Below, in pieces: positions 13,453-61,412 of a stretch of 64,000 nucleotides of DNA (the first letter of the stretch is position 1; each line of letters begins with the position of its first letter). Source of the stretch: a virus; the IMG/VR virus record IMGVR_UViG_3300024258_001044, positions 62,001 through 126,000 of that record; one strand, written 5' to 3'. Under the pieces are notes generated by a model. The model was not told the origin of the DNA. It worked only from the letters and a program-made list of their open reading frames with translations, and searched no databases. Both the position numbers and the translations under genes were made by a program.

Positions 13453-13460
13453 GAAAGGTT

Positions 13461-22401: not shown

Positions 22402-22615
22402 GGCTCGCTCCGGCTTTTCTTTTTTCTAATTCACTGCAAAGCGATTCAATTCGCTCCGATCCTTCATATTTATACCAGAAGGGAAAGACCCCATGAACAA
22501 ATAGAATTAACGCGATCTTAAACACGCACCAAGATTTTCCGCAGGCATATGCCAAATGCTCGGCATACGTCTCCCCTATACTATTTGGATGTTCAGAAAA
22601 TAACTTCATCCTCAT
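22364..22615 (-). CDS. DUF6356-like small membrane protein
   Basis: The N-terminal SEHPNSIGETYAEHLAYA, followed by a hydrophobic segment (IALILFVHGVFPFWY), matches what I know of the DUF6356 family, a small membrane protein of Proteobacteria without known function. The C-terminus carries EEDCSCDSCSK, a possible metal site. It overlaps both neighbours. Confidence 0.65.
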   Translation of the reverse strand: MRMKLFSEHPNSIGETYAEHLAYACGKSWCVFKIALILFVHGVFPFWYKYEGSERIESLCSELEKRKAGASHEEDCSCDSCSK

Positions 22616-24036: not shown

Positions 24037-24299
24037 GTGGTCTCCGTGTTGATAACCTCTAAGGTTTCAATTTCTAATTCTGCCCTCAATAGATTCTGAA
24101 TCTGAGCAAGTGTGCTCGTAAAGGCACTTGGACAACCATCACAGCCGCCAAAGAAAGAAAGAAAAACCTTTGGCGGCTCTCCGTCTTTTTCATCTTCAAC
24201 AGCATCAAGAACACAGAATCCGCTGTGCATCGCCAATGCGGGATTGATATCTTCTTCGATAAGCTCTTGCAGCTTATCTATTGAAATTATTTGACTCAT
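24033..24299 (-). CDS. NifU-like C-terminal-domain Fe-S scaffold
   Basis: The start at 24299 (MSQIISIDKLQELIEED) has an AGAAGGA site. The 88-residue protein carries GGCDGCPSAFTSTLAQIQNL, the CxxC loop of NifU/Nfu proteins, which bind and deliver iron-sulfur clusters. With the A-type carrier and radical SAM gene it forms a small phage Fe-S set. Confidence 0.85.
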   Translation of the reverse strand: MSQIISIDKLQELIEEDINPALAMHSGFCVLDAVEDEKDGEPPKVFLSFFGGCDGCPSAFTSTLAQIQNLLRAELEIETLEVINTETT

Positions 24300-24309
24300 C
24301 TTTTTCCTT

Positions 24310-24609
24310 CTATAAAAAATCAACTGTTCCCGAATATATTTCCGGAGCATATCGCCCTATCAATAATCTTTCCCAAACGACGGTGCCAAAATAGAATCCC
24401 TTAATTCGCCATTGACCATCAAAATGATTTTGGGTCTGATTAGTATATGACTCATCTGCGCTCTGCCAACCAAGCTCTCCTTCGAGATAGATACACCCTG
24501 AAGCCTCATTATAAGCTTTGGTAATTTTGTTTTGATCAACGTGACTATCCGGCCTATCGTTTATACTATTAGTTTCTCTGTATTCCCAGTAAATTGCTTT
24601 ATCGTCCAT
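24310..24609 (-). CDS. hypothetical protein (99 aa)
   Basis: The protein begins MDDKAIYWEYRETNSINDR and is rich in Trp and Tyr with beta character (GYFYGT-like FYFGTVVWERLLIG). No family was recognised. It lies upstream of the NifU-like gene in the same operon, ten bases apart. Confidence 0.6.
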   Translation of the reverse strand: MDDKAIYWEYRETNSINDRPDSHVDQNKITKAYNEASGCIYLEGELGWQSADESYTNQTQNHFDGQWRIKGFYFGTVVWERLLIGRYAPEIYSGTVDFL

Positions 24610-37714: not shown

Positions 37715-38332
37715 TTATCCACACTTACTATAGCCGCAATCTTGACAGACCGGGCATCCACCTGCATAAATTAGGTTTGGTGATTGACAATCATCACACT
37801 TGCCGCCGCCGTCCGCGCCGTCTTCGATATACTTCTTTAATACCCGAGAAACTACAGCCGAAAAGGAAAACATATCAGAATACTTATCTTTCTTTAATTG
37901 TTCGGCCATGTATTGAATAGGAACACCGTGCCTTAAGCACATCGATACCATCCTTGTCAAAGACCCATTATTTGGATTGTCGAATACCGAAACCACATCT
38001 TTGATTAAGATTTCGCTGCCCTCCTCTCCAAATCTAAGGTCGTATCTTGCATTAACGCTTTTTCTCGGGTTTTTTAGCAAAGTACCAAATTTATATTTCT
38101 TGGGGATCTCAATATTACTTGAGAGTCCACCAATTACTTCATAAGGTCTCTCATGAAGTAGTCCAATCAAGATGGTCCAGTCTTCACCCTTGATTGTCGC
38201 CCTATGTATTTCACACTTTAAACCTAACGGTCTCTTAGGAGCCTGACTATCCCTGATCTTCTCTTGATCAGACTCACTTAGACCTTTAACTCTCCAACCT
38301 ACAATTTTCTTTTCAATCTTAACTGTCTGCAT
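37715..38332 (-). CDS. nrdJb: class II ribonucleotide reductase C-terminal subunit (NrdJb-like)
   Basis: It corresponds to the C-terminal part of B12-dependent reductases: a central region around TRMVSMCLRHGVPIQYM, then a zinc ribbon CDDCQ...CPVCQDCGYSKCG (residues ~180-204). In one-chain enzymes this tail carries the redox-active cysteines that regenerate the active site. Its start overlaps the stop of the large subunit by one base, as in the split NrdJa/NrdJb enzyme of Pseudomonas. Confidence 0.85.
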   Translation of the reverse strand: MQTVKIEKKIVGWRVKGLSESDQEKIRDSQAPKRPLGLKCEIHRATIKGEDWTILIGLLHERPYEVIGGLSSNIEIPKKYKFGTLLKNPRKSVNARYDLRFGEEGSEILIKDVVSVFDNPNNGSLTRMVSMCLRHGVPIQYMAEQLKKDKYSDMFSFSAVVSRVLKKYIEDGADGGGKCDDCQSPNLIYAGGCPVCQDCGYSKCG

Positions 38333-41300
38333 TACATATCCCCATACATGCCTTCTTTCAGCGCATCAAACAAATTGGCCGCATTGTGAAGCTCACCATC
38401 GTACTCAATTGTATCACTTCCGGATACTGTTATTTCTTCATTATCTGCGAGGATGAAAACGTATTTCGTATTTTCGAGATCCTCTTTGCGAACAAGGACA
38501 CCTGAAAACGCCTCAGGATTATACCTGAAGGTGGTGATGCCCTTAAGCCCCTTCTCCCATCCCATCATGTAGATCTTTTTGAAATCCTCGAATGGGTAAT
38601 CAGTAGGAACATTTGCCGTCTTAGATACGGCAGAGTCAACCCACTTCTGAATCTTTGCCTGGATGTTGATATGATCTTCGACAGATAGGTCATTGGAAAC
38701 CCTCCAATGACTTGGTAGCTCTCTGTCACCATACATCTCTATCCATAGATGGTATTCAAGACTTCTTACGATTTCCTGAACCTTCGTCTTCTTTCCATGC
38801 TGCCTGAAGTTTCTTGCGTACTCATCAGTGAAGCTCGGCTCAACACCATTGCTACAGTTGTTACCCCAAGTTAAACTCATGGTTCCTGTTGGTGCAATGC
38901 TGGTAGCGTGAGAGAATCTGAGACCATGCTCAAGAATCTCCTGCTCTAATCCATGCCTTAAATCGTCATCAAAGGTTGATAACAACCTCTTCATATATCC
39001 TGAATCAATAGCGTTCTGTCTGGACACTATCGTGTCGAAAATGGGAGCATGTCCTTTCTCTTGCGCAAGCTCCATGTTCATAAATAGAGATACTTTTGCA
39101 ATCGTGTATGCAATCTTATCTGCGAACGCCTGAGAAGCATCATCACCATAAGACATGCCGAGCATGTTAAATACAGTGCCAAGACCTGTGAAGCCTAAGC
39201 CATGCCTTCTCTTCTGGAGAATCTGCTCTCTCATTTCAGGCAGAGGCAGGTTGTTGATCTCAACAACGTTGTCCATCATCCTTGTAGCGACAGCAATATC
39301 TACTTCGAAAGCCTCCCAATCAAAAAAGGAATCATCCGCAAATTTATTCATCACATATGGAGCTAAAATCATTGAAGCCAATAGGCAACTTGCATTGGCA
39401 GGTAAAGGCTGTTCGCCACAATTATGAACATAAATGCCGTTTGCATCAAAAGCGTTTATACCTGGAACCTGTACGTCATAAACGTCGCAAATGCCTCCGT
39501 CACTAATTGATGATATCGTTACTGCGTAACTTTCTTTGTTTAATTCTCTTTTGTAGTCACTTAATAAGTTTACTAATTTAGAATGCTTAGTGTCATCAGC
39601 AAAGCCAATCAATCTCTCAAAAGTTTTTAAATTACTTTTGCTAATAACTAATTCGTGCTGAGCTTTTGTCTTATAAAGTTTCTTTCCACCTTTCCCGTTA
39701 GGCAAAAGTGACTCTCCACTTTCTCGCCTGAATTTGTAAATCTTAGATACGATTCCAAATCTAAGAAGCATTCTTTGCACAGCTTCCAAGGTCTCTAAGT
39801 TACTTTGAGCAAGCCTTACAGAAACTCCTTTGCTTTGATCGCCTTGGACCGAGCCATCTGCATCAAAAAGCCCCCTTAAGAACCCGGCAGAAAAGGCATG
39901 AGATGCTTTCTCCATTTTAGGAGTAATAAACTTGTTTTGATTGCTCATTCCAAATTCATGCGCCAAATCTCTTATTCCAGACAACTTAAGCCTATACTCA
40001 TTTCGGCCAGCTATTTTGTGCCAACCCTTAAAATCTGCTCTTTTCTTAAGGTGTCTTATCGACATATTTACACGAGACATAATAGACTCATAACCATTTT
40101 CATTGTCAGAACTCCAAACGGACAGGATAGCAGAATCTTTCTTCAGCGTTCCGTCCCCAACGAGTAGCCCCATCAGGTATCCCTGATCTACAGAGTAGAC
40201 TCCATTCATTTTGTCTGTTCCTAACCAGTAAGCAGAATCACTATGATCATGAAGAATAACTTTATCACCAATCTCAATTTCGCCTGCTTCTTTCCAATTG
40301 GAAATAATTTTATCACCATTATTGGAGCTTACTACCATAACTTTATGATTAGGAGTTAATCTTAATTTGAAGCCTTCTTTGGTTTCTAAATTCAAAACCG
40401 ATTTATATCCGGTTTTAAAAAATCCTTCTGATTGATATGGCTTTCCGTTCACCATCAAGGTGCATTCTTGACCTATAAGATCGGAAACCTGCTTCGGGCC
40501 TTCTTCTGTATGAACCCAGGTATCAGAAGGTACACATGGATTCGTAGCTCTAATAACTTCACAGAACCAAAGGATATTATCTCTGTTCACCCTATCGATA
40601 AGAATGAATCCAGGCTCGGCGAAATTGTATGTTGATGTCATAATCTTATCAAAGAGTTCAACGGCTCTAAGCACCTTGAATACTCTCTTCTTAAAGATAG
40701 TTCCTACTTCGCAGTTACCGCTAAGGACTTCAGTGTGATCTGCTGCATAACTGAAGTAATCGTATTCAGGATATCTGAAAGGGATATCTCCAGCTTTCAT
40801 CACTGCAACCTCATCTGCACCAATTTCCTCTATGTCACATTTCTCGCAACGCTCCCAGAACCATAGCTTCCACATGGCATCATCTCTAACAGCCGTCATG
40901 AAAGCATCTGTGATTAAAACAGATAAGTTAAAATATCTAAGAACGCCATCTTCTCTTTTACAAGTGATGAAATTCTCAATCTCTGGATGCTGAATGTCGA
41001 GGCAACCCATTTGGGCTCCACGTCTGCCACCGCCGCTCATAACTGTGCTGCACGTTGCATCGAAGATTTTCATAAAAGAAATGACGCCAGAAGTCTCTGC
41101 TCCTGCGCCAAATACATACGCGCCGCTTGGCCTAATTGGGCTGAAATCATAGCCCACACCAGCGCCTGTGCGCAGTGTCATCGCAGATTCTTTGGCGGTC
41201 TGCATGATGCCATCCATCGAGTCAGGGATCTGCCTGAGCACCGTACAGTTAATCGGGCTGGCGTCTCGCTTGAGGTCGCCAGCGCCGACATTGGCCATAA

Positions 41301-41514
41301 TACGTCCGCCACCTGCGAACTTACCTTCTAATAGAATTCTGGAAAACTCAACTTCCCATTCTTCTGGTTTTGGCTCAAGTGATGCTAACCCTTTTGCGAC
41401 TCTCAAACAGGTGTCTTCAGGTGTTAGATCGATGGGTTGTCCTTCGGAATCACGAAGCCTATACTTACCAGCTTCTCCGCCCCATACTTCTTGAGAGATA
41501 TTTTGAATAAACAT
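38332..41514 (-). CDS. nrdJa: class II (B12-dependent) ribonucleotide reductase with intein
   Basis: It reduces ribonucleotides to deoxyribonucleotides using adenosylcobalamin. The 1060-residue frame is 688 residues of reductase plus a 372-residue intein. The exteins join as ATNP|CGEQPLPANASCLL, the active-site motif, and later have the IAPTGTMSLTWGNNCSNG loop. The class II enzyme works with or without oxygen and depends on host cobalamin. It is paired with the NrdJb tail gene. Upstream 250 bases hold a terminator and presumably the promoter. Confidence 0.93.
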   Translation of the reverse strand: MFIQNISQEVWGGEAGKYRLRDSEGQPIDLTPEDTCLRVAKGLASLEPKPEEWEVEFSRILLEGKFAGGGRIMANVGAGDLKRDASPINCTVLRQIPDSMDGIMQTAKESAMTLRTGAGVGYDFSPIRPSGAYVFGAGAETSGVISFMKIFDATCSTVMSGGGRRGAQMGCLDIQHPEIENFITCKREDGVLRYFNLSVLITDAFMTAVRDDAMWKLWFWERCEKCDIEEIGADEVAVMKAGDIPFRYPEYDYFSYAADHTEVLSGNCEVGTIFKKRVFKVLRAVELFDKIMTSTYNFAEPGFILIDRVNRDNILWFCEVIRATNPCVPSDTWVHTEEGPKQVSDLIGQECTLMVNGKPYQSEGFFKTGYKSVLNLETKEGFKLRLTPNHKVMVVSSNNGDKIISNWKEAGEIEIGDKVILHDHSDSAYWLGTDKMNGVYSVDQGYLMGLLVGDGTLKKDSAILSVWSSDNENGYESIMSRVNMSIRHLKKRADFKGWHKIAGRNEYRLKLSGIRDLAHEFGMSNQNKFITPKMEKASHAFSAGFLRGLFDADGSVQGDQSKGVSVRLAQSNLETLEAVQRMLLRFGIVSKIYKFRRESGESLLPNGKGGKKLYKTKAQHELVISKSNLKTFERLIGFADDTKHSKLVNLLSDYKRELNKESYAVTISSISDGGICDVYDVQVPGINAFDANGIYVHNCGEQPLPANASCLLASMILAPYVMNKFADDSFFDWEAFEVDIAVATRMMDNVVEINNLPLPEMREQILQKRRHGLGFTGLGTVFNMLGMSYGDDASQAFADKIAYTIAKVSLFMNMELAQEKGHAPIFDTIVSRQNAIDSGYMKRLLSTFDDDLRHGLEQEILEHGLRFSHATSIAPTGTMSLTWGNNCSNGVEPSFTDEYARNFRQHGKKTKVQEIVRSLEYHLWIEMYGDRELPSHWRVSNDLSVEDHINIQAKIQKWVDSAVSKTANVPTDYPFEDFKKIYMMGWEKGLKGITTFRYNPEAFSGVLVRKEDLENTKYVFILADNEEITVSGSDTIEYDGELHNAANLFDALKEGMYGDM
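39421..40536 (-). other. intein in NrdJ (residues 327-698)
   Basis: It begins with Cys (CVPSDTWVHTEEG), has a block-B-like TPNHKVMVV, two LAGLIDADG motifs (YLMGLLVGDGT and GFLRGLFDADGS) and ends with IYVHN followed by Cys of the extein. It is thus a full splicing domain with a homing endonuclease, inserted at the invariant NP/CGEQ site. Confidence 0.93.
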
Positions 41515-41781: not shown

Positions 41782-42285
41782 CTACTCTTGATCGTCTGAA
41801 GGATCGAACTGTTCGTTCACAGCACCGTCTTTCCATTTTCGCACGATGCGCGTCTCTTCGGACAATGTAAAGGTAGCTAATATATCATCCCGCTTGGAGA
41901 ATGAGGCAGCAGAGATATGTCTGGTGCCTGCCCCCTCGGGGATGTCTAAGGTGGGATCGTCCACGGTTAAATATATACCAGATCCTAGTATCTGCCCACT
42001 ATCGCTGATAACAATTGCTCCATCATCACCACTCCGCACCATGTTAATGAACTCCTCTTCGTGAGCACCAACAACATTGATGTATTTTTCAAGCTTGCTT
42101 CCTCCGAATTGTCTCATCCCGTCGACTTGGGTTTTAAAAACTCCAAATACAATAAGGGATCCTACGAATTCATCCTTCATCAATAGCTCTTCTGAGATAT
42201 TGCGGAGGTTCTGAAAAACTCTTTTCTCAATTCGTTCACGCGATACGGATAATTGATATGCAAAATCTACAACAGGTTCAGTCAT
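41782..42285 (-). CDS. diadenylate cyclase (DisA_N/DAC domain)
   Basis: It is predicted to make cyclic di-AMP from two ATP. DGAIVISDSGQIL (DGA at 88-90), GAGTRHISAASFS (GTRH at 120-123) and TLSEETRI (141-144) match the DAC core, aligning with the DGA, GTRHRAA and SEETG motifs of DisA/CdaA. The RHR signature is RHI here, which could alter ATP handling. At 167 aa it is a lone catalytic domain with a helical lead and acidic tail, no membrane or DNA-binding part. It is the last gene of the PrkA/YeaH/SpoVR operon, overlapping SpoVR's stop. Confidence 0.85.
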   Translation of the reverse strand: MTEPVVDFAYQLSVSRERIEKRVFQNLRNISEELLMKDEFVGSLIVFGVFKTQVDGMRQFGGSKLEKYINVVGAHEEEFINMVRSGDDGAIVISDSGQILGSGIYLTVDDPTLDIPEGAGTRHISAASFSKRDDILATFTLSEETRIVRKWKDGAVNEQFDPSDDQE

Positions 42286-44858
42286 TACTTTTGTTTCCTT
42301 CTAATAATTGTGAGACCTTTTTCTGGATCGACATCACTGAAACCTTCCTCATCGAAAGTGAAGTGGAATGGATTGCCTGACGTGTCCCACGTCTTCAGGT
42401 CAATCACATTGCCCCATGCCTCATATAGATACTCCATAACCTTTGGAAGATGCTTATAAGCAATCGTTCCAATCTCTGGGCTTCCATGCTCAAGCTCAAG
42501 ACTCATAGATGTTACGTTAGTAATCGCAATCATAGGAACTCTGTAGTTATGAAGCTTGCTGGTCATTGACTCAACAATGTCCTTAACCTTATTGCTCTGA
42601 ACCTGAACGTATTGGTTTTTACTTCTCGGGTCCCTTCTCTGAACATAGGTGAACATCTTAAGCTCATCAACAATCTCCTGAGTGAGGTAGATGTTCAAGA
42701 ATGATACATCATCTTCTTCCTCGCATACCTCAAGAATCTTCTGAAAACCTGTAATGGTTGACTCACCTTTCTCGTATAGCTCATCCCATCTTTTCTTAAT
42801 GTCGTTGAAAATCGTAAAGCCTAAGAAGTATGGGTTCATATTGAATGGATCACGTCCTGGCTGAACAACTCTCTCATGAATCTTAACGAAATCAATATAC
42901 TCTGCTGCGGAAAGCATCTCCTCGCCCATGACATACATGAGTTCTGCATGAATATAGCTTGCAAAGCCTTCGTTCATAATCTTTGTGATGTACTGAGGGT
43001 AGAAGTAAAAGGATTCTTCTCGGATAATAGAGAGGACATCACGCTCCCAATCTTCAAGCTTAGAAGAGTAAGTCATCAAGAACCAGTTGATATCAATCTC
43101 TTTTGCAGGTGGGAACTTCGTGTTAACCGTTACCTCTTTTCTCTCTGGACTTTTGATTCCAAGTACATCTTCGAATTCACCAATCTTACGACTCTTGACC
43201 ACCTTTCTTCTGCCAGGGTATTTCTCACGGAATAAACCTTTATGCCAATCAATATTCTTCTCAACGGAGAGACCAATATCCATGATGCGTTCAACTCTTT
43301 CTAAACCATACCTCTCAATATAGCCTTCGATTCTTGCAGCACGTTCAGCAGCATGGTAAACCATCTTCCTGTCTGTCTGCTTGAATAGGTAGTTATTCTT
43401 GAAGAATGCGCTGTGTCCGTAACAGTTATGAGCTACAATTCCGCCATATAGCGCAAAGCTATGATCTCCTTCCACTTCCATGTCCCAAAAACTTTGAATC
43501 TTTTCTGTAGAGAATGAGCGAACCCATTCGATTTGTCCAGCTATATATTCATCTTTCTTTGCAGAGAAAGACCAAGTTCTGGTCGGAGCATATTCAGTCT
43601 CATATCCAACTATGTTATATAACTCCAAGTTGTCTTCGCCACTTAAAACCAATTCATAAGAAGTTTTTCTTTCCCCCTTTATATCAAAAGATTTCCTGTT
43701 TCTTGAAGAAATAGATGAAAAAATTCCAAATGAATTCAGAAGAAATTTTAACTGATTTGCAAGCAGATCGCTTGTGGTAGAAAAAGAAGAGCTTCTATTT
43801 TCATTATCAAAATAACCATCACCTTCGAAAAGCCCTCTTACAATTCCCTTTTTAAACTCAAGAGGAACATTGTTTGCAAATACAAAATCAGGTATCTTCT
43901 TGTTCTCACAACCTTTCCCACAGCTTTCTTCAAGCCATTTTCCAATCCATTTGTCAGAAAAATGAACAATGCCAGAATTATCACGCTCTCTTTTGGATAC
44001 ATGTACAGGAAGTTTCGGAGATAACTGATTAATTGCATTTGAAATTGCTGCATGATAATCGTCTTCATCCTTGTGCATCGCAAAATGAACTTGTGTTCCG
44101 CTAAGATAGCCTTCAGCAATATATAGCCCGATCATCCTTCCGGATTCTTCATTTAATTTTAAAGTATATCCATTGCTTTCATGGAAAGCTTTTTTCCTAA
44201 ACAGCCTATCATTACTCTGAATATTTTCGATTTCAATTAAAATCTCTTCGAGAGCAGACTCCTCGTTCTGAGAAGCCTTAGGGTAAATGATTCTATCATC
44301 TTCCCTTATTTCAGAAACTTTTACCCAAGATGGGCCAACATCAGTTTCTACATAAATCTTATGATCAGATGTAAACCTATAAACCTCATCGGAACCCCTT
44401 ACTTTCAATTCAGTAATTTCTTTTTTTCTTGCAGTCTCTTTACACCAGTTAACAGTAGAAATTCTACCTTTATGTGTAAATACTTTATCGCCCTTTTTTA
44501 CTTCAGAGATGGGCTTTACTCCATCCAAAGTAATAATTTTAGCATCCTCATGGACACAGTGAGCGATGACCATAATCTGTGCAATGTCAGGGTTGGTATC
44601 AAGAAGGAAAGCATAAGATGGATTGTTGTTAAGGATTAGCTCGTAAACCTTTGACATACCCATTTCACCATTAAGCTTCTGGTATTTGTAACTCTGACCG
44701 TATGTCCAGTGTCGTGCTCTGGTCGGAAGACCATAGCTCATTACCTCAAGCATGACCTCTTCAGGCACAACTTCCCAATTGATTGGAAAATAATCTACGC
44801 CCATCTCATCACACTTCTTCTGACACCATTTGTCTACTTCGATTAATCTTTTTTTCAT
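42285..44858 (-). CDS. SpoVR family protein with intein
   Basis: It is the phage form of SpoVR/YcgB, a protein linked to spore cortex in Bacillus and to stress or starvation in Enterobacteria; its biochemical role is unknown. The 857-residue frame is 479 residues of SpoVR plus a 378-residue intein. The N-part has KWCQKKCDEMGVDYFPI and the C-part GFASYIHAELMYVMG, AAEYIDFVKIHERVVQPGRD and NPYFLG, all typical. It overlaps YeaH upstream and DAC downstream by four or fewer bases, so the operon is tightly coupled. Confidence 0.93.
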   Translation of the reverse strand: MKKRLIEVDKWCQKKCDEMGVDYFPINWEVVPEEVMLEVMSYGLPTRARHWTYGQSYKYQKLNGEMGMSKVYELILNNNPSYAFLLDTNPDIAQIMVIAHCVHEDAKIITLDGVKPISEVKKGDKVFTHKGRISTVNWCKETARKKEITELKVRGSDEVYRFTSDHKIYVETDVGPSWVKVSEIREDDRIIYPKASQNEESALEEILIEIENIQSNDRLFRKKAFHESNGYTLKLNEESGRMIGLYIAEGYLSGTQVHFAMHKDEDDYHAAISNAINQLSPKLPVHVSKRERDNSGIVHFSDKWIGKWLEESCGKGCENKKIPDFVFANNVPLEFKKGIVRGLFEGDGYFDNENRSSSFSTTSDLLANQLKFLLNSFGIFSSISSRNRKSFDIKGERKTSYELVLSGEDNLELYNIVGYETEYAPTRTWSFSAKKDEYIAGQIEWVRSFSTEKIQSFWDMEVEGDHSFALYGGIVAHNCYGHSAFFKNNYLFKQTDRKMVYHAAERAARIEGYIERYGLERVERIMDIGLSVEKNIDWHKGLFREKYPGRRKVVKSRKIGEFEDVLGIKSPERKEVTVNTKFPPAKEIDINWFLMTYSSKLEDWERDVLSIIREESFYFYPQYITKIMNEGFASYIHAELMYVMGEEMLSAAEYIDFVKIHERVVQPGRDPFNMNPYFLGFTIFNDIKKRWDELYEKGESTITGFQKILEVCEEEDDVSFLNIYLTQEIVDELKMFTYVQRRDPRSKNQYVQVQSNKVKDIVESMTSKLHNYRVPMIAITNVTSMSLELEHGSPEIGTIAYKHLPKVMEYLYEAWGNVIDLKTWDTSGNPFHFTFDEEGFSDVDPEKGLTIIRRKQK
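43425..44558 (-). other. intein in SpoVR (residues 101-478)
   Basis: It starts with CVHEDAKIITLDG, has TSDHKIYVETD and the endonuclease motifs MIGLYIAEGYLSG and IVRGLFEGDGYFDN, and ends ALYGGIVAHN before a Cys. The insertion interrupts VIAH|CYGHSAFFKNN, the most conserved stretch of the family. Its sequence is distinct from the NrdJ intein. Confidence 0.92.
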
Positions 44859-46024
44859 TTCTTTTCAGCCTTTTTTGACACACCATTAACGTTAAAGAAT
44901 TGCTTTAGAGCATCGAAAACGCCATCTTTAGAGTTAACTCTTAAGGATACAAATCGCGTTCTTGAAATCTCATTATTGAACACGTTGTAAAGCTTATCTT
45001 CTTCCTTGAACCAAGGTAGCTCCGCTTGCTCGTCCGGCACAATTTCACCATACCCGATTGCAGTGCATAAAGGCAATAGCTCCCTTACAAGACCTACGCA
45101 CTCTCTGTTATCCTGCATCCAGTTGTCGCCATCGCTGAACTCAAAAACGTAATTGTTCCAATCATCTGGCGGATGGTTATTCTTGATATGATCAAGAGCG
45201 AACTTGAATGCAGAACTGCACTTAGTTCCACCGCTTGCCGAAATCGTAAAGAACTCTTCTTCTGTAGTTTCAAATGCAGTTGTATCATGAGCAATGAAGA
45301 TTAACTCAACATTTTGATAACGTCTTTTTAGAAACTGAACCATCCAGAAGTAGAAGCTCTTAGCAATATAGGTCTTCTTGTCATCCATAGAGCCAGATCT
45401 ATCCATCATGATATAGACCGCAGCATTTGAGACGTACTCAGTCTCCTCTTCCCACACCTTATATCTGAGGTCTTCGTTATGAAAATCTCCAACGTGTGGA
45501 TTTCCAAGCGCAGCATTCCTTTTGATGTTCTGAAGGAGAGTTCTTTTGATGTCAAGATTTGGGAAGATTCCCTTTCTATCGATTGACGAAACTTCTTCAT
45601 GAACTACTTCAATCTGACTGGACTTGTTTGGCTCCATCCATGGAAGATTTAACTCTTCCATTAGCATGTTGACCAACTCATCTACAGAGATTTCAGCTTC
45701 AAAAATTCTCTCGCCCTCTTGGTCTCCTGGGCCGCCAGGAGCAGCTTGTCCCTTCTTAACTTCATAGTTTTTTCCGGGGACTACGTCCTGACCTTGACCA
45801 ACCTGAGAGTCATCTTTCCATTTTCCATATTTGAACGTATGCTTATCAAGAAACCTTACAGGAATCTTAACTTTCTTGGAGCCTGAAGAACGAATGATGT
45901 TATACTCTGTGATTACGTCTCGCCCATGCTTTCTGATTGCTCTTTTGACAAGCTCTTCATGTCGATCAGAATCTCTTTTACCACGTTTCTTCAGTTTCCA
46001 AATATCAGAAAGACTATCAGACAT
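44855..46024 (-). CDS. YeaH/DUF444 VWA-domain protein
   Basis: It is a homologue of E. coli YeaH, which is encoded beside the PrkA kinase YeaG. An N-terminal basic part is followed by the von Willebrand A domain: VYIMMDRSGSMDDKK (DxSxS metal site), a middle ASGGTKCSS and a late FSDGDNWM. 389 residues compares with 427 in E. coli. The family is thought to work with PrkA and SpoVR in adaptation to stress; the mechanism is not known. Confidence 0.93.
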   Translation of the reverse strand: MSDSLSDIWKLKKRGKRDSDRHEELVKRAIRKHGRDVITEYNIIRSSGSKKVKIPVRFLDKHTFKYGKWKDDSQVGQGQDVVPGKNYEVKKGQAAPGGPGDQEGERIFEAEISVDELVNMLMEELNLPWMEPNKSSQIEVVHEEVSSIDRKGIFPNLDIKRTLLQNIKRNAALGNPHVGDFHNEDLRYKVWEEETEYVSNAAVYIMMDRSGSMDDKKTYIAKSFYFWMVQFLKRRYQNVELIFIAHDTTAFETTEEEFFTISASGGTKCSSAFKFALDHIKNNHPPDDWNNYVFEFSDGDNWMQDNRECVGLVRELLPLCTAIGYGEIVPDEQAELPWFKEEDKLYNVFNNEISRTRFVSLRVNSKDGVFDALKQFFNVNGVSKKAEKK

Positions 46025-46025
46025 T

Positions 46026-46136
46026 TTACTCCTCCATACCAGACACTATTCTTATTGTATCATGGTTTTGATTTTCATCTTCATAAGCATCAGACTCTAT
46101 AAATGTACTTTTTCCATAATTAATTATAATAGTCAT
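46026..46136 (-). CDS. very small acidic protein (36 aa)
   Basis: An ATG at 46136 with AGGAGA five bases upstream gives MTIIINYGKSTFIESDAYED and a short acidic end. It fills the gap between the 116-aa gene and YeaH, and its stop overlaps the ribosome site of YeaH. It may serve translation coupling or be a small regulator. Confidence 0.5.
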   Translation of the reverse strand: MTIIINYGKSTFIESDAYEDENQNHDTIRIVSGMEE

Positions 46137-46149
46137 TACTTCTCCTGGT

Positions 46150-46500
46150 TTAATGTACAGCTAAGATTCCGTAACAATCTTTCGTATCTTTAACAGATAT
46201 AACCAACTGAAACGGGTCTTGCCCAAGTTCTGCACGGTACTCTTTGAGAAAAGATACCAAACGATTCACAGTCTCCTCTTCGGTTTCATCTGTACTAAAT
46301 GGTTGCCCAAGTTCTATGATATCAATGAAGCTATTTTGGAAAGAAAAGCTTCCATCCTCATTACTATATCCATTGAAACTTTGCCCTAGATATATAGGGA
46401 GCGCCTCCAAAGGAACATTATCAAGCGTAAAGAAATCCTCGGAAAGTTTTAAATTCTCCAGCCTTTGTTTTATCATAGCATATATTTTCAATATATTCAT
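46150..46500 (-). CDS. hypothetical protein (116 aa)
   Basis: It begins MNILKIYAMIKQRLENLKLS (start may be the second Met) and is acidic, alpha/beta. It lies within the PrkA-YeaH operon and has no counterpart that I know of in the bacterial cluster. The function is unknown. Confidence 0.65.
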   Translation of the reverse strand: MNILKIYAMIKQRLENLKLSEDFFTLDNVPLEALPIYLGQSFNGYSNEDGSFSFQNSFIDIIELGQPFSTDETEEETVNRLVSFLKEYRAELGQDPFQLVISVKDTKDCYGILAVH

Positions 46501-46512
46501 AATCTTCCCATG

Positions 46513-46866
46513 TTACTTACAACATCCATTAACCCAAAGTACGAATCCAATCGAAAGGGAATCTGCCTCTTCACACGGCAAACAAGAAAGCGAGAATTCA
46601 TAATCAGAAAGATCTGTCTCTGAGCTTTTCACTTCAAACATAATCCGCTCAACAGCCTCTTTAACCATCGCGTCAAACTCACCATCAGGATCTTTTGCAT
46701 ACACGATTCTGGTCCTCATGGGATTCGCCGCAAACTCTAATGAGCAAGCAACAAGCAGAACACCTTGAGAAAATCTAATGTCGTCACCAAACTCATCGGT
46801 AAGGGCTTCCCTCAGCGCCTCTACTGGCGCCGAGGTAACCTCATTCTTCATGATGCCGAAGAACAT
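46513..46866 (-). CDS. hypothetical protein (117 aa)
   Basis: Its start overlaps the stop of PrkA (TAATG). The sequence begins MFFGIMKNEVTSAPVEALRE, with a Cys-rich end (LSCLPCEEADSLS...NGCCK). No family was recognised. It is a second phage-specific insertion between the kinase and YeaH. Confidence 0.65.
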   Translation of the reverse strand: MFFGIMKNEVTSAPVEALREALTDEFGDDIRFSQGVLLVACSLEFAANPMRTRIVYAKDPDGEFDAMVKEAVERIMFEVKSSETDLSDYEFSLSCLPCEEADSLSIGFVLWVNGCCK

Positions 46867-48797
46867 TAGTTTCTTGCCATAAGTGAGCTAACGTATCTAA
46901 GCAATTCGTTGGCACTTCCGACAGTGTAACCGTGATGGTCCGCAAGGGTCTCGATGACAACATTGATCTTCTTAAGCTCTTCCTCATCTGGGTTTCTGGA
47001 ACTAACAGTGATTCTGATAACGTCACGTCTCTCGTCAAAAAGCTGCTTCTCAAGCGCTTCCTTGAGTCTTGGGTGCTCCTTGTAGGAAAGGGTACCATCG
47101 TTATCTCTTGCCGAACGAAGCATCTTACGATACACTTCCTGCCTGAAAGATCTCTTGCCAGAGTCGGAGATTCTAATCTTCTCTTCGACGCTTCTCATGA
47201 GTCTCTCATCTGGCTGAACATCATTGCCCCACTCATCCTCAAGCATATGACCGTCAAGGTATGCCTCAACATGGTCAAGGTAGTTCTTGAGAAGGTTTTC
47301 GATCTCGCTCTCGAAGTTAACGAAGAATGCCTTCTGAACATCGTTCATTGCCATCTTGGTGTATTCTTCAATTACAGCAGTAAGGATACCCTCTAATCTG
47401 TTCTGTTCTTTCTCGTCAACCTTAGGGTTAGATTCAAGCCCATCTCTAAGGGATCTTACGATATCAACCGGAGTGATGTAACCCTTCTTGCCAGAAGCAA
47501 GGATGGAAGAGATTCTGTTGATAACGTATCGTGGAGATACTCCAACCATTCCTTCATCTTTGAATTCTCCCTTGAACTTAGGTACTTCGTGCTTAGAGAA
47601 TCCATCAACCTCATCACCGTTGTATAGTCTCATCTTGTTCAGAGTGCTAAGCCCCTGGTGGTCAGATTCAATTAGTCTCGAAAGGATAGAGAACATTGCT
47701 GCGCACCTTAACGTATGTGGTGCAATGTGAACACCCTTGAAATTCGCCTGACGAATGAGCTTCTCGTAAATCCTTACTTCCTCATTGACACTGAGGTTGT
47801 ATGGGAATCGTAGAACAATAGTTCTATCATGGAGTGCCTCCATCTCATCTTTCCCAAGGAATCTCTTGTACTCAGTCTCGTTAGTGTGAGCGAGAACAAA
47901 TTCGTCCGCATAGATAAGCGGGAACCTTCCGGTCTTGATGTTCTTTTCCTGAGCAAGGGTGAGAAGAACGTAAAGGAACTTCTGATCAACCTTGAGCATC
48001 TCAACAAATTCCATCATGCCACGGTTAGCAACCATGAGTTCGCCATCGAACTTGTAAGCTCTTGGGTCAGACTCTGTGCCGTACTTACCAATCTTACTAA
48101 GATCAATGGAGCCAACAAGCTCAGAGATATCCTGACTCTTCTTATCGGAAGGTACGAAAGTACCAATGCAGTTTCTTGCCCTTTCGGAGATGAAAATCCT
48201 ACGAACCGGTAGCTCCATGATGTTTCCACCATACTTCTCTTTAAGAATAGCCTCCATGTAGGGAGATAGTTCTCCCTGGACGCGAATACCATACTCCTCA
48301 CGCAGCCTACCTCTAAGCTCCATAGGGATTGCCGTCATTGGATCTTCGTTCATCGGCGAATCGGAGAATGCGTATAATGCACCGTCCTCTGTCTTGGAGA
48401 AAGCCTCAAGCCCTCTCTTCAAAAGGATGGCCAGTTGGGACTTGCCGGATGATGTTGGTCCGTATACAAGAAGGATTCTACGACCGACTTCACTGCCTGC
48501 TGCGGCAGCCCTAAGGTACTTCATAAACTCTTCGATCTGATCCTGCACACCGAATAGGTCATCTTTGAAGAAATTATACTGAGTTACCTCATCTTCTTCG
48601 TCCGTCTCAAAACCATGGCTCTCAATCATTCTAAGAACTCGTTCGTGTGCTCCCATGTGAATAGATGGGTCATCGACCACCATCTTTAAGTACTCTCCAA
48701 GGGTACCTTCCCATGCTTCCTGCTTACTCTGCTCCATGTGGGAACTTACAAGCTCAAGTAATGAATCTGCTGATGTCATCTGTTCTCCGTTAGTCAT
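46866..48797 (-). CDS. prkA: PrkA serine protein kinase
   Basis: At 643 aa it is the same length as E. coli YeaG (644). An AAA-type part has LLVYGPTSSGKSQLAILLK (Walker A, ~108-126) and the C-terminal PrkA domain follows. Bacterial PrkA is a serine kinase or AAA protease-like enzyme active in sporulation or starvation, acting with YeaH and SpoVR. It heads the operon that ends with DAC; its start overlaps the FmdB-like gene. Confidence 0.95.
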   Translation of the reverse strand: MTNGEQMTSADSLLELVSSHMEQSKQEAWEGTLGEYLKMVVDDPSIHMGAHERVLRMIESHGFETDEEDEVTQYNFFKDDLFGVQDQIEEFMKYLRAAAAGSEVGRRILLVYGPTSSGKSQLAILLKRGLEAFSKTEDGALYAFSDSPMNEDPMTAIPMELRGRLREEYGIRVQGELSPYMEAILKEKYGGNIMELPVRRIFISERARNCIGTFVPSDKKSQDISELVGSIDLSKIGKYGTESDPRAYKFDGELMVANRGMMEFVEMLKVDQKFLYVLLTLAQEKNIKTGRFPLIYADEFVLAHTNETEYKRFLGKDEMEALHDRTIVLRFPYNLSVNEEVRIYEKLIRQANFKGVHIAPHTLRCAAMFSILSRLIESDHQGLSTLNKMRLYNGDEVDGFSKHEVPKFKGEFKDEGMVGVSPRYVINRISSILASGKKGYITPVDIVRSLRDGLESNPKVDEKEQNRLEGILTAVIEEYTKMAMNDVQKAFFVNFESEIENLLKNYLDHVEAYLDGHMLEDEWGNDVQPDERLMRSVEEKIRISDSGKRSFRQEVYRKMLRSARDNDGTLSYKEHPRLKEALEKQLFDERRDVIRITVSSRNPDEEELKKINVVIETLADHHGYTVGSANELLRYVSSLMARN

Positions 48798-49081
48798 TTT
48801 TTGTATGGGTTCTCGCGGTGTCCGTACACATCCTCGATGGCTGCTTCGTCACCCTCACGTACCTTTTTTACGATTTCTCGTACTTCGTCCTCTATCTCTT
48901 GTATAATATCTTCTTTCCTTTTCTCTATCCTGCCCGTAGGAGGGGATAAGGAAACCAAGACTTTTCCTTCGGAACACTCACAACACTCCTCAGGATTGCT
49001 CCGCTGTTTCATGAAGCTTGATATGCTCATAACTTCAGTGGATACTGCTTCACACTTGTCACATACGAAATTATATACCGG
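48794..49081 (-). CDS. FmdB-type zinc-ribbon protein (95 aa)
   Basis: The start at 49081 (MPVYNFVCDKCEAVSTEVM) has a GAGGAGA site. CxxC at residues 8-11 and CCECSEGK later make a zinc ribbon like that of FmdB-family regulators. A charged helix follows (IIQEIEDEVREIVKKV). It could be a transcription factor or a chaperone. It overlaps PrkA's start, so it may regulate or partner the cluster. Confidence 0.7.
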   Translation of the reverse strand, partial: PVYNFVCDKCEAVSTEVMSISSFMKQRSNPEECCECSEGKVLVSLSPPTGRIEKRKEDIIQEIEDEVREIVKKVREGDEAAIEDVYGHRENPYKK

Positions 49082-49274
49082 CATCTTTCTCCTCATTCTC
49101 ATCGCCTATATAGACAATTTTGTCACCCTCAAGCTTAATCTTACCGGCAAGAGATAGATCTCTAAGTAACTTCTTCTTAAACTTGGGGTCAGTCACTCTT
49201 ATTGTGAAGTCGAGAACATCCTCTTCTTCACAATATGTGACGCTCCTGATTCTTCCTACAACTTTTTCACTCAT
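49071..49274 (-). CDS. hypothetical protein (67 aa)
   Basis: Starts at 49274 (MSEKVVGRIRSVTYCEEEDV) overlapping the upstream stop. A small alpha/beta protein of unknown family within a chain of overlapping genes. Confidence 0.6.
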   Translation of the reverse strand: MSEKVVGRIRSVTYCEEEDVLDFTIRVTDPKFKKKLLRDLSLAGKIKLEGDKIVYIGDENEEKDAGI

Positions 49275-49560
49275 TGTCCAATATCCTATATTGCATGCTG
49301 AGGATACGATCATCAGTTTTTCCGAGCAACATGAAAATGTCTTCTACTTCCTTGAAGAAAAAGCCTTCGAGGTCTTCATATTTGTCTATCATTGTGAAAT
49401 ATCTGAAATCCATAACATCAGAGTCCTCGTAAGGCTCAGTTGCTAAAAATGTAATTTTTTTTCGACTGTTTTTTATCACAACACAATCGATTGCTCCCCA
49501 GTTCTTCGAACGTAGGTGAATAAAATCAAAAGCTTTTAAAGCTTTGTAATTAAACTTCAT
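49267..49560 (-). CDS. hypothetical protein (97 aa)
   Basis: The start at 49560 (MKFNYKALKAFDFIHLRSKN) overlaps the helicase stop; the longer frame is a shadow of the helicase end. It has mixed beta character (DCVVIKNSRKKITFLATE). The family is unknown. Confidence 0.6.
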   Translation of the reverse strand: MKFNYKALKAFDFIHLRSKNWGAIDCVVIKNSRKKITFLATEPYEDSDVMDFRYFTMIDKYEDLEGFFFKEVEDIFMLLGKTDDRILSMQYRILDNE

Positions 49561-50911
49561 TTTCTTCGCCGTCATCTTTAACCCAGTCTTCGGGATAATT
49601 GTTAATTCTCGATTTTTCAAATTCCTTTTCGAGGTAGACAACTCCCTTTGCACCATCCCTGTTCTTTGCAATATGTACCGGCATATCCTCATGAAGATGC
49701 TCTTCATCTCTTGATTCGATGATCAACACAATATTGGAGTTATCTCCAATCATTTTACTGCGTCCGATTTCCTCAACATCATTAAACGATTTCTTGGCCT
49801 TTTTATCCTTAGCTTTCTTCTGTGCAGCAGAAATGACAGGTAAGTCCTTCTTTCTACACAATTCATGAACATCTGCCGCAACATGACCAACCTCAAGCCA
49901 ATCTTGACCGAAATCTGTGTTTGGCTTCATGATACCAAGGTAGTCAATGCATAATAGATCAATCGTGAATTCTGCGGATACAGATTCTAGTCTTGCCTCA
50001 ATATCCATTGTCCTTGAGCCTCTCGGCATATCAATGATGTAGAAGTTTTTATGGTAAATCTTCTGGAAATCAAGAGAGCGCTCCCAACGACCCACTTCGT
50101 TTTCAGATAAATAACCTCGACTAAGCGCCTTATGTCTAATCTGTGCCAAATTGGCATCGACTCTTGCCTCAAGCTGAGACTTACTCATTTCAAGAGAAAC
50201 GTATACAACATTTTTCCCGTCATCAATAAGGTCTTGCCCAAGATACTGGTCTGGCTTATTTGATCCAAGCCACGAATTGATTGCCATGTTCAGCATGAGC
50301 ATGCTCTTACCAGATGACGATGCGCCTACGACAACCAGGAACTCTGAGTTTCTAATACCAAAAGTATAATCATCAATCTCTCTGTATCCAGAAAGAACAC
50401 CTGCCACCATATTCGGATTCTCTTTCGTGTACTCATATGTATCAACACGATCCTGCACAGTTTCAGAAAGTCTACCTTCAGAAAAAACAGAACCCTTCTT
50501 GAGCCTCTCAACCTTAGATACAATCCTTCTGAAGTTATCATTGATATCATCAAGCTCTGCGTCTTCACTTGCGAGCTGTGTGTCCTCAATTACCTTCTTG
50601 ATCAGAAAAGCGTTATATCGATCTTTAATCTTATCAACATAATACTCTACTTCGCCTTCTGGGCAATCTGTCTCCTGTAGGATCTTAATTACCGGAAGCT
50701 CCTCAATATCCGTGGAAGTCTCGATAAGGATATCATAAGTTGGCGGAGCTTTATACCTTGAGTAATATTCTAAAACCCTCTCAAAGGTGGGCTTGTATTG
50801 TGGAAGCATAGCCTCTTTCAGCAGCTTTAGATCAACAACTCTTGAAACTCGGTTAAGTTCTGCGGAACCTTTAAGCATCCAGCTAAGAACTTTCTTATCA
50901 GCTATATCCAT
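49550..50911 (-). CDS. replicative DNA helicase (DnaB-like)
   Basis: It unwinds DNA at the phage replication fork. The N-terminal helical domain (to ~150) is followed by the RecA-type motor: Walker A GASSSGKSMLML (~195-206), a later LLCIDYLGIMK (Walker B), and the loop AKNRDGAKG near the end, typical of DnaB. It is 453 aa. Just upstream is a DnaC-like loader, making a helicase-loader pair. Confidence 0.92.
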   Translation of the reverse strand: MDIADKKVLSWMLKGSAELNRVSRVVDLKLLKEAMLPQYKPTFERVLEYYSRYKAPPTYDILIETSTDIEELPVIKILQETDCPEGEVEYYVDKIKDRYNAFLIKKVIEDTQLASEDAELDDINDNFRRIVSKVERLKKGSVFSEGRLSETVQDRVDTYEYTKENPNMVAGVLSGYREIDDYTFGIRNSEFLVVVGASSSGKSMLMLNMAINSWLGSNKPDQYLGQDLIDDGKNVVYVSLEMSKSQLEARVDANLAQIRHKALSRGYLSENEVGRWERSLDFQKIYHKNFYIIDMPRGSRTMDIEARLESVSAEFTIDLLCIDYLGIMKPNTDFGQDWLEVGHVAADVHELCRKKDLPVISAAQKKAKDKKAKKSFNDVEEIGRSKMIGDNSNIVLIIESRDEEHLHEDMPVHIAKNRDGAKGVVYLEKEFEKSRINNYPEDWVKDDGEENEV

Positions 50912-58978: not shown

Positions 58979-60421
58979 TTATCTCTTTCTTCTTCGGTCA
59001 ATCAAAGAACGCCTTGTGCCACCTTGTAGCTTACCAAAGCCAGACTTCTTGCCTCGAATCTTTCTGTGAATCTCATCCTTAACGGAAGATACCTTGTTCT
59101 CTTCAAGGTCAAGAGTCATTGCGGAAGCTCTCTTTCCTTCCTTAGCTGCCGCAGCAGCAGTCGCGTCCTTGCTTTCCTTCTTAAGATTCTCGATTCTATC
59201 CTGAGGAAGACCAAGTCCTGCAAACCAAGTATATACCCTTACATTCTCAACACCCTCCTGCGCATAAACGCCTCGATAGATGTTGGCATCCTCAGTCTGC
59301 TCAGAGATAACGTGGAACGCATAATCAATGTTGATTGCCGGAAGGTTCTCTAATGCTTCCTCAGAACCTACGATGATAACGCCACCGGTTCTGGTCTGTG
59401 CAAGATCGAATCCTTCTGCGAGCATGTTGCTATTAAGAGAGTCCATCATTGCTTCTGCAATGCCAACCTCATCCATGTAATCTTCAACTTCAACCATTCC
59501 ATACACCGAGCAGTCACCGCAAGAAATTACCTTACCAAAGTCGGACGGGTCCATAGAGGTGTACTTGGATGCCTGAGAAGTAAGGCTGTTGAACAAGTGG
59601 ATAGGCTCAACGATTGCGTTGTTAGCCGTGCTCCAGAACTGAGACTGACCAAGCCCGCCATAGATCTGCTCGATACGTGCGTTATCTGCTACGACCAAAC
59701 AAGACACCTTATCGTCTGCTGTCATTCTTGCAAGCTTTGCAAGAGTCTCAATGGAGTTCTTCTTAGACTGAGCATCTTCAGTCGCTTTTGGAAGCACGAA
59801 GATAAGCCCAAGAGGCATGCCGGTCGAATAGCAAAGCTCAACCATTGTATCAACGGAGCTTGAGCCAGTACCTCCTCCACCAGACATTGCAAGGAAAAGC
59901 ATGTCATTTCCTTCTGCAATCCTATCAATGAACTGAGCACATACCTCTGTGTTATCAGAGAAGATTTCTCGGCCGAGATCGAGGTCCTTACCTGTACCAC
60001 CAAGGCTTCCCTCAAGCAATAGCTTCTGGGTTGGAAGCACGTCAACGAACCTAAGATCCTGTGCGGATGTATTGATGACGCCTACGTCATACCCTAACTT
60101 GTGAAACTGCTCAGCAAGACGGGAACCAGCCTGTCCAACTCCTACAACTCCAATATTAATGCTAACCTCTTGCTCTTCAACTAATTCAGGCACAGGTTCC
60201 TCCTTTTTTACTTTTGTTTTCTTCGCCTTAAGCCTCGCCAGAATGTCCGGATCGAGCTTACGCTCCGGCTCTGGTGCCACCTCAGCCGGTGTTTCGGCCG
60301 GTGTTTCGGCCGGTGTTTCGAATGCGTCCATAAGTGCTGCGTTTTCATTTGCGACATCTTGTTCGGACTTTGGTTTTACTGCTGCGTCTTTTTCACTTAC
60401 GCTTACTTTGTATTTAGCCAT
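58979..60421 (-). CDS. FtsZ/CetZ-like tubulin-family GTPase (480 aa)
   Basis: The start at 60421 (MAKYKVSVSEKDAAVKPKSE) has a GAGGA site and overlaps the upstream gene. After an acidic, repetitive N-terminus (PAETPAETPAE) comes the GTPase: GVVGVGQAGSRLAEQF (with GQAG as in CetZ/tubulin), SGGGGTGSSSVDTM tubulin signature (~205), and a domain with N-terminal Asp contacts. The tail is Lys-rich. It could form filaments that move DNA or virions, as in phages with PhuZ-like tubulins; polymer formation is inferred. Confidence 0.88.
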   Translation of the reverse strand: MAKYKVSVSEKDAAVKPKSEQDVANENAALMDAFETPAETPAETPAEVAPEPERKLDPDILARLKAKKTKVKKEEPVPELVEEQEVSINIGVVGVGQAGSRLAEQFHKLGYDVGVINTSAQDLRFVDVLPTQKLLLEGSLGGTGKDLDLGREIFSDNTEVCAQFIDRIAEGNDMLFLAMSGGGGTGSSSVDTMVELCYSTGMPLGLIFVLPKATEDAQSKKNSIETLAKLARMTADDKVSCLVVADNARIEQIYGGLGQSQFWSTANNAIVEPIHLFNSLTSQASKYTSMDPSDFGKVISCGDCSVYGMVEVEDYMDEVGIAEAMMDSLNSNMLAEGFDLAQTRTGGVIIVGSEEALENLPAINIDYAFHVISEQTEDANIYRGVYAQEGVENVRVYTWFAGLGLPQDRIENLKKESKDATAAAAAKEGKRASAMTLDLEENKVSSVKDEIHRKIRGKKSGFGKLQGGTRRSLIDRRRKR

Positions 60422-61412
60422 TGATGATATCCTCATACGCTTGTTTGATTTGATTATATATTTCGTCTTCGTTAACAAAGGCCAATGGGATAAATCCCCT
60501 GTCCCTTTTTAGCTTATCTACTCTGCATAGGTAGTCTGCTTCAACTTCGTTCATCGGTGCAGCATCTGTGGTAATGATTTTGCAACCGCAAGCTTGGGCC
60601 TCATATAAACTCAAACCCAGCCCCTCCTTTTGAGAAGGTGCCAATACGACATCAGCTTCTCTATATATTTTACCGATTTCGTTCCTATTAAGTACCCTAT
60701 CTATATGTAAAATATTAGTATGGTTATCAATAGCAATACGCTCTGTTGAGCCAGTGAATATAAGCTTTGCCTTGGGATTATTTACCCTAAGAAACCTGTT
60801 AAAAGCAGCCACAACCAAGTCCGTATTCTTTGTGCTATGGTCTGGATTCAGACTTCCTGCATGATAGAATGTGACTATATCGTTCTGCTTGGATTCCGGC
60901 GGATAAAAAATGCTCCGGTCTACAAGGTCAAAGTTTACCCGTTTGGCTTTGGGCATGTCAAATACCTGCTTAGTTAAATCAGTTAGGCACCAAATCTCAT
61001 CGAACACATCGTAAGACCCGTTCTTGACATATGAAGGAGTTACCCATTCAACCATCGGAACATCAATCATCTTAACCTTGTCTCGTGCTTTAATCTTTGC
61101 CACCCATTGCCCTTTCTCCATAAGAGTCTCAAAAGAAATGACTGTATCAATCTTATATTTAATGATTGCGTTGTGCATCAGGTAGCTAACAGGACGCTTT
61201 GCCGTGAATGGCAGGATGATATCGCGCTTAAACTCATCTGGGTTCTTCTGGCTGGGATAAACTCTCCTATAGACTCTTCCATCCAAAATATACTTAGCCT
61301 TAGGAGCGTAGACTACAACGTGCCCTTCGGACAGTAGCTTATCTCCAAGATTTTTAGACAAATAGAAAAGTCCGGATTCGTAGCAGTAGGTCTTGATAAG
61401 GTATCGTCTCAT
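60414..61412 (-). CDS. glycosyltransferase (GT4/GT-B-like)
   Basis: The C-terminal half carries the GT-B donor-binding pattern: VVLAPSQKEGLGLSLYEAQA and CGCKIITTDAAPMNEV. It transfers a sugar from a nucleotide donor. The 332-aa protein overlaps the GT2 gene upstream and the tubulin gene downstream. The acceptor could be phage DNA, a virion protein or host envelope. Confidence 0.88.
   Translation of the reverse strand: MRRYLIKTYCYESGLFYLSKNLGDKLLSEGHVVVYAPKAKYILDGRVYRRVYPSQKNPDEFKRDIILPFTAKRPVSYLMHNAIIKYKIDTVISFETLMEKGQWVAKIKARDKVKMIDVPMVEWVTPSYVKNGSYDVFDEIWCLTDLTKQVFDMPKAKRVNFDLVDRSIFYPPESKQNDIVTFYHAGSLNPDHSTKNTDLVVAAFNRFLRVNNPKAKLIFTGSTERIAIDNHTNILHIDRVLNRNEIGKIYREADVVLAPSQKEGLGLSLYEAQACGCKIITTDAAPMNEVEADYLCRVDKLKRDRGFIPLAFVNEDEIYNQIKQAYEDIING

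Follow-up and report, generated by a model that had tools for sequence, protein, structure and literature searches.

The genes prkA, yhbH (or yeaH), and spoVR (ycgB) form a bacterial stress and sporulation operon. In E. coli, yeaGH is induced by hyperosmotic and starvation stress (PMC4664914), a prkA mutant of B. anthracis tolerates osmotic stress poorly (PMC13001217), and spoVR is required for the spore cortex (Beall and Moran 1994, as cited in PMC4605624). That the trio can be borne by phages is already on record, e.g., for phiYS40: PrkA, SpoVR, and a YeaH-like gene also occur in the other Thermus phages TMA and MN1, in the jumbo phage RsoM2USA (PrkA and SpoVR; PMC8504454), and in huge uncultured phages. 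Here, we describe another version of it, found in a window of 64,000 nt that corresponds to positions 62,001 to 126,000 of the 236-kb IMG/VR record IMGVR_UViG_3300024258_001044, and in which the trio is followed by a gene for a protein of the diadenylate cyclase (DAC) family, i.e., the family that synthesizes cyclic di-AMP (c-di-AMP). Comparison with its relatives shows that the PrkA-YeaH-SpoVR-DAC cassette is ancient in a clade of jumbo phages and has been inherited vertically there; it lies downstream of the replicative-helicase genes, and a sigma-70-type factor often comes after it.

In the window, the cassette runs on the minus strand from 48797 to 41782 in the order PrkA, three small open reading frames (ORFs; S1, S2, and S3), YeaH, SpoVR, and DAC, after which comes a terminator. 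PrkA (YeaG-type; 643 amino acids (aa); 46866–48797) has the AAA_PrkA domain (Pfam, 1.1e-110) and the PrkA C-terminal domain (2.7e-70); YeaH/YhbH (389 aa; 44855–46024) is a VWA protein of the DUF444 family (Pfam, 1e-88; NCBIfam YhbH, 2e-114); SpoVR (42285–44858; Pfam SpoVR, 2.8e-94) is encoded by an ORF of 857 aa; and the DAC domain protein (167 aa; 41782–42285) matches PF02457 at 1.7e-11 with 44.2 bits, its relatives scoring 44–66 bits (Pfam cut-off, 27). An earlier note on this DNA, made from the sequence alone, had described three bacterial genes in operon order within a phage and a c-di-AMP synthase gene at their end; the profile matches bear out the trio and the DAC domain of the last gene, and the recurrence of this order in 12 further divergent lineages speaks against chance.

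The linkage was explored by a scan with five phage DACs, which yielded 16 further DAC loci, from which copies were then removed. In the window lineage and 11 others, PrkA-YeaH-SpoVR-DAC is present wherever the contig reaches (the L048 stretch stops short of DnaB and PrkA, both of which are present in L175 on the same contig). The DACs of these 12 lineages are 42–83% identical to one another, those of the relatives being 41–54% identical to the DAC of the window, and in the main-clade lineages the start of the DAC gene lies −8 to +77 nt from the stop of SpoVR. A wider PrkA scan added three members to the clade: L188 (PrkA, 57%), where PrkA-YeaH-SpoVR is followed by a YpsA/SLOG gene, DAC, and a sigma gene; L190 (PrkA, 57%), where the trio is followed by a YpsA/SLOG-like gene and a sigma gene without a DAC; and L180 (PrkA, 66%), where a cupin gene takes the place of the DAC gene. 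The DAC is therefore linked to the trio in 13 of the 15 lineages of the clade, and the refutation that the earlier note had envisaged, a DAC unlinked in relatives, fails. The PrkA tree, which does not include L190, puts L180 within the DAC-bearing group and L188 at the base of that group, so the DAC was probably lost in L180.

A second linked gene is the sigma factor. Sigma-70 regions 2 and/or 4 were found in the gene after DAC in seven lineages (L004, L008, L048, L054, L056/L062, L060, and L188); this gene overlaps the DAC stop in L008 and L060, and in L190 it comes after the SLOG-like gene. The DAC distances track those of PrkA (r 0.92) and of DnaB (r 0.90), and the ratio of nonsynonymous to synonymous differences (pN/pS) is 0.12 for DAC, with synonymous sites saturated, and 0.11 for DnaB, i.e., purifying selection. 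The idea that the DAC gene is a pseudogene was rejected on the strength of this ratio.

That the DAC follows DnaB about as well as it follows PrkA could also be taken to mean that the DAC is an independent passenger, engaged in osmotic or K+ control or in ATP or nucleotide signalling, and sharing only a transcript with the trio. In line with this explanation, DnaB and the cassette belong to one long run of co-directional genes, and the trio exists without a DAC in the Thermus phages and in other viral contigs. However, the adjacency of SpoVR and DAC has been kept in L048, L057, and L063 even though other parts of the cassette took up kilobase insertions, and the overlap or near-overlap of start and stop recurs, which leaves the passenger explanation possible but rather doubtful.

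The same adjacency, maintained throughout the main clade, is an argument for another explanation, in which c-di-AMP would be the module's own ligand: the DAC signal would switch PrkA-YeaH-SpoVR, or the linked sigma factor or SLOG protein, in a self-contained viral circuit. Co-evolution of the DAC with PrkA is in keeping with such a circuit, as is the presence of a YpsA/SLOG-family gene at the same place in the two deep branches, between SpoVR and DAC or sigma (L188:15172-15675 and L190:14264-14824). SLOG domains presumably bind ligands derived from nucleotides, and the SLOG-family protein of L188 and L190 is a possible nucleotide-ligand sensor. Against the circuit, no known c-di-AMP-binding motif turned up in PrkA, YeaH, or SpoVR (no search was aimed at one), L180 and L190 retain the trio without a DAC, and in 80 of the 80 cellular loci examined the trio works with no DAC near it. 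We consider the own-ligand explanation conceivable, albeit on the improbable side. A more elaborate form of it, in which c-di-AMP would gate an AAA+/VWA/SpoVR machine together with a linked sigma-70 factor or SLOG receptor, by which the phage would time transcription and the state of the host, is unlikely, if still worth stating.

An important question is whether the DAC is an enzyme at all. Its best NCBIfam model is the haloarchaeal DacZ (3e-14), and its predicted structure, with a mean predicted local distance difference test (pLDDT) score of 79, has CdaA (6hvm) as its top Foldseek match (E 3e-7, probability 1.0, template-modelling score 0.65–0.70), with DisA also matched at probability 1.0. 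The likeness to CdaA and DisA lies in the predicted fold, the DGA motif (42024–42016), the first Arg of the RHR motif, and SE(E/Q) (SEE, 41862–41854); by contrast, the phage protein has neither the membrane helices of CdaA-type enzymes nor the DNA-binding domain of DisA and is about 20% identical to them. With the soluble DacZ-type enzymes (those of haloarchaea and the bacterial DACs of Nitrospinota, Tectomicrobia, and Pyrinomonas), it shares a third position of RHR that is not Arg, and, as in these enzymes, no transmembrane segment was seen in it. It differs from them in consisting of the DAC domain and one N-terminal helix only, in having Ile at the third position, and in belonging to a phage operon. 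As to its cellular source, genome contigs were scanned with patterns taken from the DAC alignment, and no relative emerged.

The residues D88, R122, H123, S142, and E143 are invariant in the 12 phage DACs, and in the DGA motif D88 and G89 are invariant, with A90 present in 11 of the 12 (Ser in L005/L053). In Leptospira CdaA, D172 and the first R203, which match the phage Asp and first Arg, are essential, and mutation of the matching Ser lowers activity (PMC12974146). The complete GxRHRxA motif, however, is absent: all 12 main-clade DACs read GTRHI(S/T)A (GTRHI at 41928–41914 in the window), in which the first Arg, the His, and the Ala are kept and the third Arg is replaced by Ile. Since changing RHR to AAA abolishes the activity of characterised enzymes (PMC3328451, PMC13022847), the phage DAC might be catalytically dead and serve as a nucleotide-binding regulatory subunit. 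Those mutants, however, had all three residues changed at once, never the third Arg alone; moreover, annotated haloarchaeal DacZ reads RHH, RHV or RHF is found in the soluble DACs of related type in bacteria, L188 reads GTRHK, and the DacZ of H. volcanii is active (PMC6741144). With the Asp, first Arg, His, and Ser invariant, a dead DAC is distinctly unlikely. The phage DAC would more probably than otherwise be an active cyclase, and c-di-AMP signalling is plausible because the catalytic residues are kept.

The trio itself is well preserved. The PrkA Walker A motif (GPTSSGKS, at about 48461–48438) is intact, as are the metal-ion-dependent adhesion site (MIDAS)-type motifs DRSGS, GGT, and SDGD of YeaH in the alignment. 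The 857-aa length of the SpoVR ORF is explained by an in-frame LAGLIDADG intein of 378 aa (residues C101–N478; 43425–44558, minus strand), recognized by Intein_splicing (6e-10), LAGLIDADG_3 (2.5e-15), and intein_Cterm matches; it has a splicing domain, an endonuclease, a Cys start, and an HN|Cys end, and homologues without an intein exist. Splicing would leave a product of about 479 aa, and the intein-free relatives have 460–480 aa. The junction, AH|C...HN|CYGH, falls immediately after the first His of H-x-x-G-H, as it also does in L052 (H|x-x-G-H), while in L048, L057, and L063 the SpoVR intein sits at E-G-F-A|S-x-x-H. PrkA has an intein of its own in L052, between A-D-E-F-x-x-A-H and T-N-E-T-E, and in L190, where it ends at the same HN|TNETEY junction. 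Apart from the intein insertions, the SpoVR motifs H-x-x-x-H and E-G-x-A-x-x-x-H show no variation among 48 sequences from phages and bacteria. Inteins usually occupy the active sites of conserved proteins, and H-x-x-G-H and E-G-x-A-x-x-x-H may therefore be the functional core of SpoVR. Large insertions resembling an intein also split SpoVR in Ktedonobacteria (L081:13325-15919; L082 and L083), and the large subunit of ribonucleotide reductase (RNR) in the window (38332–41514) is likewise split by a LAGLIDADG intein.

The earlier note took PrkA for a serine kinase and the cassette for a means of holding the host in a starvation-like state, which would make it a starvation or dormancy programme imposed via serine phosphorylation by PrkA and via c-di-AMP. 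E. coli YeaG is indeed required for adaptation to sustained nitrogen starvation and affects rpoS (PMC4664914), and seven lineages have a linked sigma factor. However, neither kinase activity nor more than negligible protease activity was found for the PrkA of B. anthracis, whose kinase-like domain lacks a P-loop, and a Ser/Thr kinase or protease role is disputed even for cellular PrkA (PMC13001217). The phage PrkA, judged by its domains and its Walker A motif, is best described as an AAA+ ATPase, and the kinase label is doubtful. The starvation-like state is an analogy with YeaG of which the sequence gives no sign, and the sole tie to host transcription would be the sigma factor, which is absent beside the DAC in the window lineage. 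A programme of this kind is thus improbable.

In place of it, we tentatively favour, at somewhat less than an even chance, a stress- and envelope-homeostasis module with its own c-di-AMP output, which would keep the infected cell stress-adapted. PrkA and YeaH, the latter with its metal-site motif intact, would constitute an ATP-driven remodelling pair acting on SpoVR as a client or effector, in which the invariant H-x-x-G-H and E-G-x-A-x-x-x-H resemble an active site. The DAC would turn the cell's ATP into c-di-AMP, and this nucleotide, on which K+ and osmotic balance depend (PMC13022847), would limit turgor and the uptake of K+ and osmolytes, while the PrkA-SpoVR arm would influence the envelope or the stress physiology. 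The infected cell would in this way be held stress-adapted, osmotically stable, and envelope-stable through a long jumbo-phage infection, and the linked sigma factor, where present, would tie this state to a phase of viral transcription. In such a module, c-di-AMP might either feed back on PrkA-YeaH-SpoVR or act on host targets alone.

A DHH-DHHA1 protein of about 280 aa, encoded next to a PurA-like gene, was found in 5 of the 7 searched DAC-bearing records larger than 200 kb and in none of the 10 DAC-free viral records searched, and it is absent from the 236-kb record of the window and from the 223-kb G037, both perhaps partial. The PurA-like adenylosuccinate synthetase gene adjoins this phosphoesterase in L072 (G001:341.5 kb), L070, L071, and L073; in L072, the PurA-like protein has 270 aa, is shorter than cellular PurA, and gives a weak PurZ match. 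As an enzyme for the breakdown of c-di-AMP or pApA, the DHH-DHHA1 protein is a lead, no more.

Several observations weigh against the stress-homeostasis module. L180 and L190 lack the DAC, so the trio can work without it, and the third Arg of RHR is missing. In the window lineage, no sigma factor is linked, and in the fuller record the region-4 match occurs only at 384 kb, far from the cassette. An Rfam search of the window found neither a c-di-AMP riboswitch nor any other Rfam RNA. The DHH-DHHA1 protein lies far from the cassette, has a weak similarity to NrnA/RecJ models, and has an association with the DAC that is confounded by phylogeny (clade structure). Finally, the SpoVR model (pLDDT 88) gave no significant match to solved structures in the PDB, and an enzymatic role of SpoVR is for this reason only a guess.

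Phages are known to encode counters to nucleotide signalling, and the cassette could alternatively serve counter-defence, with c-di-AMP production or ATP consumption disturbing a nucleotide-based host immunity (like the cyclic-oligonucleotide-based anti-phage signalling system, CBASS). PADLOC, however, matches none of the cassette genes except for the intein endonuclease, and no such gene was noticed nearby, so this explanation is very unlikely. A known anti-phage defence system was itself rejected as an identity for the cassette, the only PADLOC match being the homing endonuclease inside the intein.

The closest cellular PrkAs, 51–56% identical, come from Chloroflexota, Tectomicrobia, Nitrospinota, Acidobacteriota, and one Clostridia metagenome-assembled genome. 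The order PrkA-YeaH-SpoVR is shared by the window, its relatives, and most of the closest cellular loci. The phage cassette differs from the bacterial operon, which has the same three families in the same order, in its adjoining DAC: cellular DACs lie elsewhere, 9 of 13 of these bacterial genomes having their own, mostly CdaA-like. In the PrkA tree, the phage PrkAs form one clade (100/100) beside the Chloroflexota/Acidobacteriota/Tectomicrobia type, a kinship that points to the source of the operon rather than to the present host. The PrkAs of the Thermus phages and of Pseudomonadota-type viral contigs fall apart from this clade, which indicates that viruses captured the trio more than once; since the Thermus-phage branches are long, the exact number of captures is uncertain. 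These other phages also differ in organization, phiYS40 and MN1 having the order YeaH-SpoVR-PrkA, and no DAC was found in phiYS40, MN1, or LR756511.

The linkage of the DAC (and sigma) to the phage trio appears to be new. No paper on a phage-encoded diadenylate cyclase with PrkA/SpoVR was found in a search mostly outside the subscription literature. A tblastn search of INPHARED (50,697 phage records) with the phage DAC gave no match, which led us to reject the DAC as a common phage gene; a DacZ query matched only short unannotated contigs, several of which are probably bacterial DNA.

Could the cassette then be host DNA or the product of a misassembly, as the earlier note had allowed? The G+C content shifts at 14 kb of the window, which might suggest so. 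However, all 64 kb, including these GC-rich first 14 kb, are collinear with a second, 395-kb IMG/VR record at 99.9–100% identity, and the cassette lies among phage-type genes and is kept in 12 further lineages, where DnaB precedes it and RNR usually follows. The window encodes DnaB, a DnaC-like loader, PhoH, and topoisomerase-like and PhuZ-tubulin-like proteins; terminase matches are weak in the 395-kb record and in some relatives. A host or misassembled origin is hardly credible and was rejected on the collinearity of the second record, which confirms the module as virus-borne. The tubulin-like gene (58979–60478) is a weak match to phage tubulin PhuZ (phrog_4733, 1.5e-4), which is a marker of jumbo-phage cell organisation.

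The finer layout of the cassette agrees with most of what the earlier note had listed. The three additional small genes between PrkA and YeaH are present on the minus strand: S1 (117 aa; 46513–46866) has no family above cut-off and no homologue among the relatives, being found only in the window lineage; S2 (116 aa; 46150–46500) has a very weak possible counterpart in the PrkA-YeaH interval of L048 (3637–4077; tblastn E 0.08); and S3 (36 aa; 46026–46136), between S2 and YeaH, has the reading of the sequence as its sole support. By these comparisons, S1–S3 are specific to the window lineage, bar the weak counterpart of S2. PrkA and S1 overlap by 1 nt, YeaH and SpoVR by 4 nt, and SpoVR and DAC by 1 nt; the claim that all genes overlap was slightly overstated, since gaps of 1–13 nt separate the small genes. 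The shared terminator is confirmed (41764–41734, minus strand; a 14-bp stem with a T-rich tail, folding z-score −4.77). The genes are adjacent, as "fused in one operon" implied, but there is no protein fusion. All the genes and their order had been given correctly, whereas the SpoVR intein and the preceding DnaB-helicase genes had been overlooked. Nor is the cassette a self-contained four-gene unit, as it follows a conserved co-directional block that starts with a DnaB-type replicative helicase (49550–50911; Pfam DnaB_C, 4.6e-33), conserved there in the relatives, and continues with a small protein of 80 aa found in most relatives (49071–49313) and an FmdB-type zinc-ribbon protein (48794–49102), which lies directly upstream of PrkA, overlaps its start by 4 nt, and keeps this position in the relatives. 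Downstream in the window lineage, the terminator is followed by RNR, with no sigma gene.

Elsewhere in the window, radical SAM/SPASM, IscA-type, and NifU-type iron-sulphur proteins are clustered (20285–24350). The GC-rich first 14 kb (1–14000; 55–59%), in which no convincing genes were noticed, carry a 59-nt element (TATAACATC..TATGAGTTACTTAG..TTTTTCACCCC) in about 15 dispersed copies spaced by 419–1561 nt, along with TTTTCTCCCC/GGGGAGAAAA motifs that recur and, near 11284–11378, a perfect 33-nt hairpin. These repeats, present in both IMG/VR records, had no match in the Rfam search and are possibly an array of unknown non-coding units.

The cellular PrkA-YeaH-SpoVR trio is widespread, and its viral version with a DAC and often a sigma factor provides a lead, by guilt by association, that is not to be had from cellular genomes. 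The linked DAC and sigma factor suggest a trio that operates together with the physiology of c-di-AMP (osmotic and envelope homeostasis) and a transcription switch, and the inteins, by marking H-x-x-G-H and E-G-x-A-x-x-x-H of SpoVR as the likely functional core, give a directly testable hint. It would also be an early example of a tailed phage whose genome has a conserved diadenylate cyclase among its stable components.

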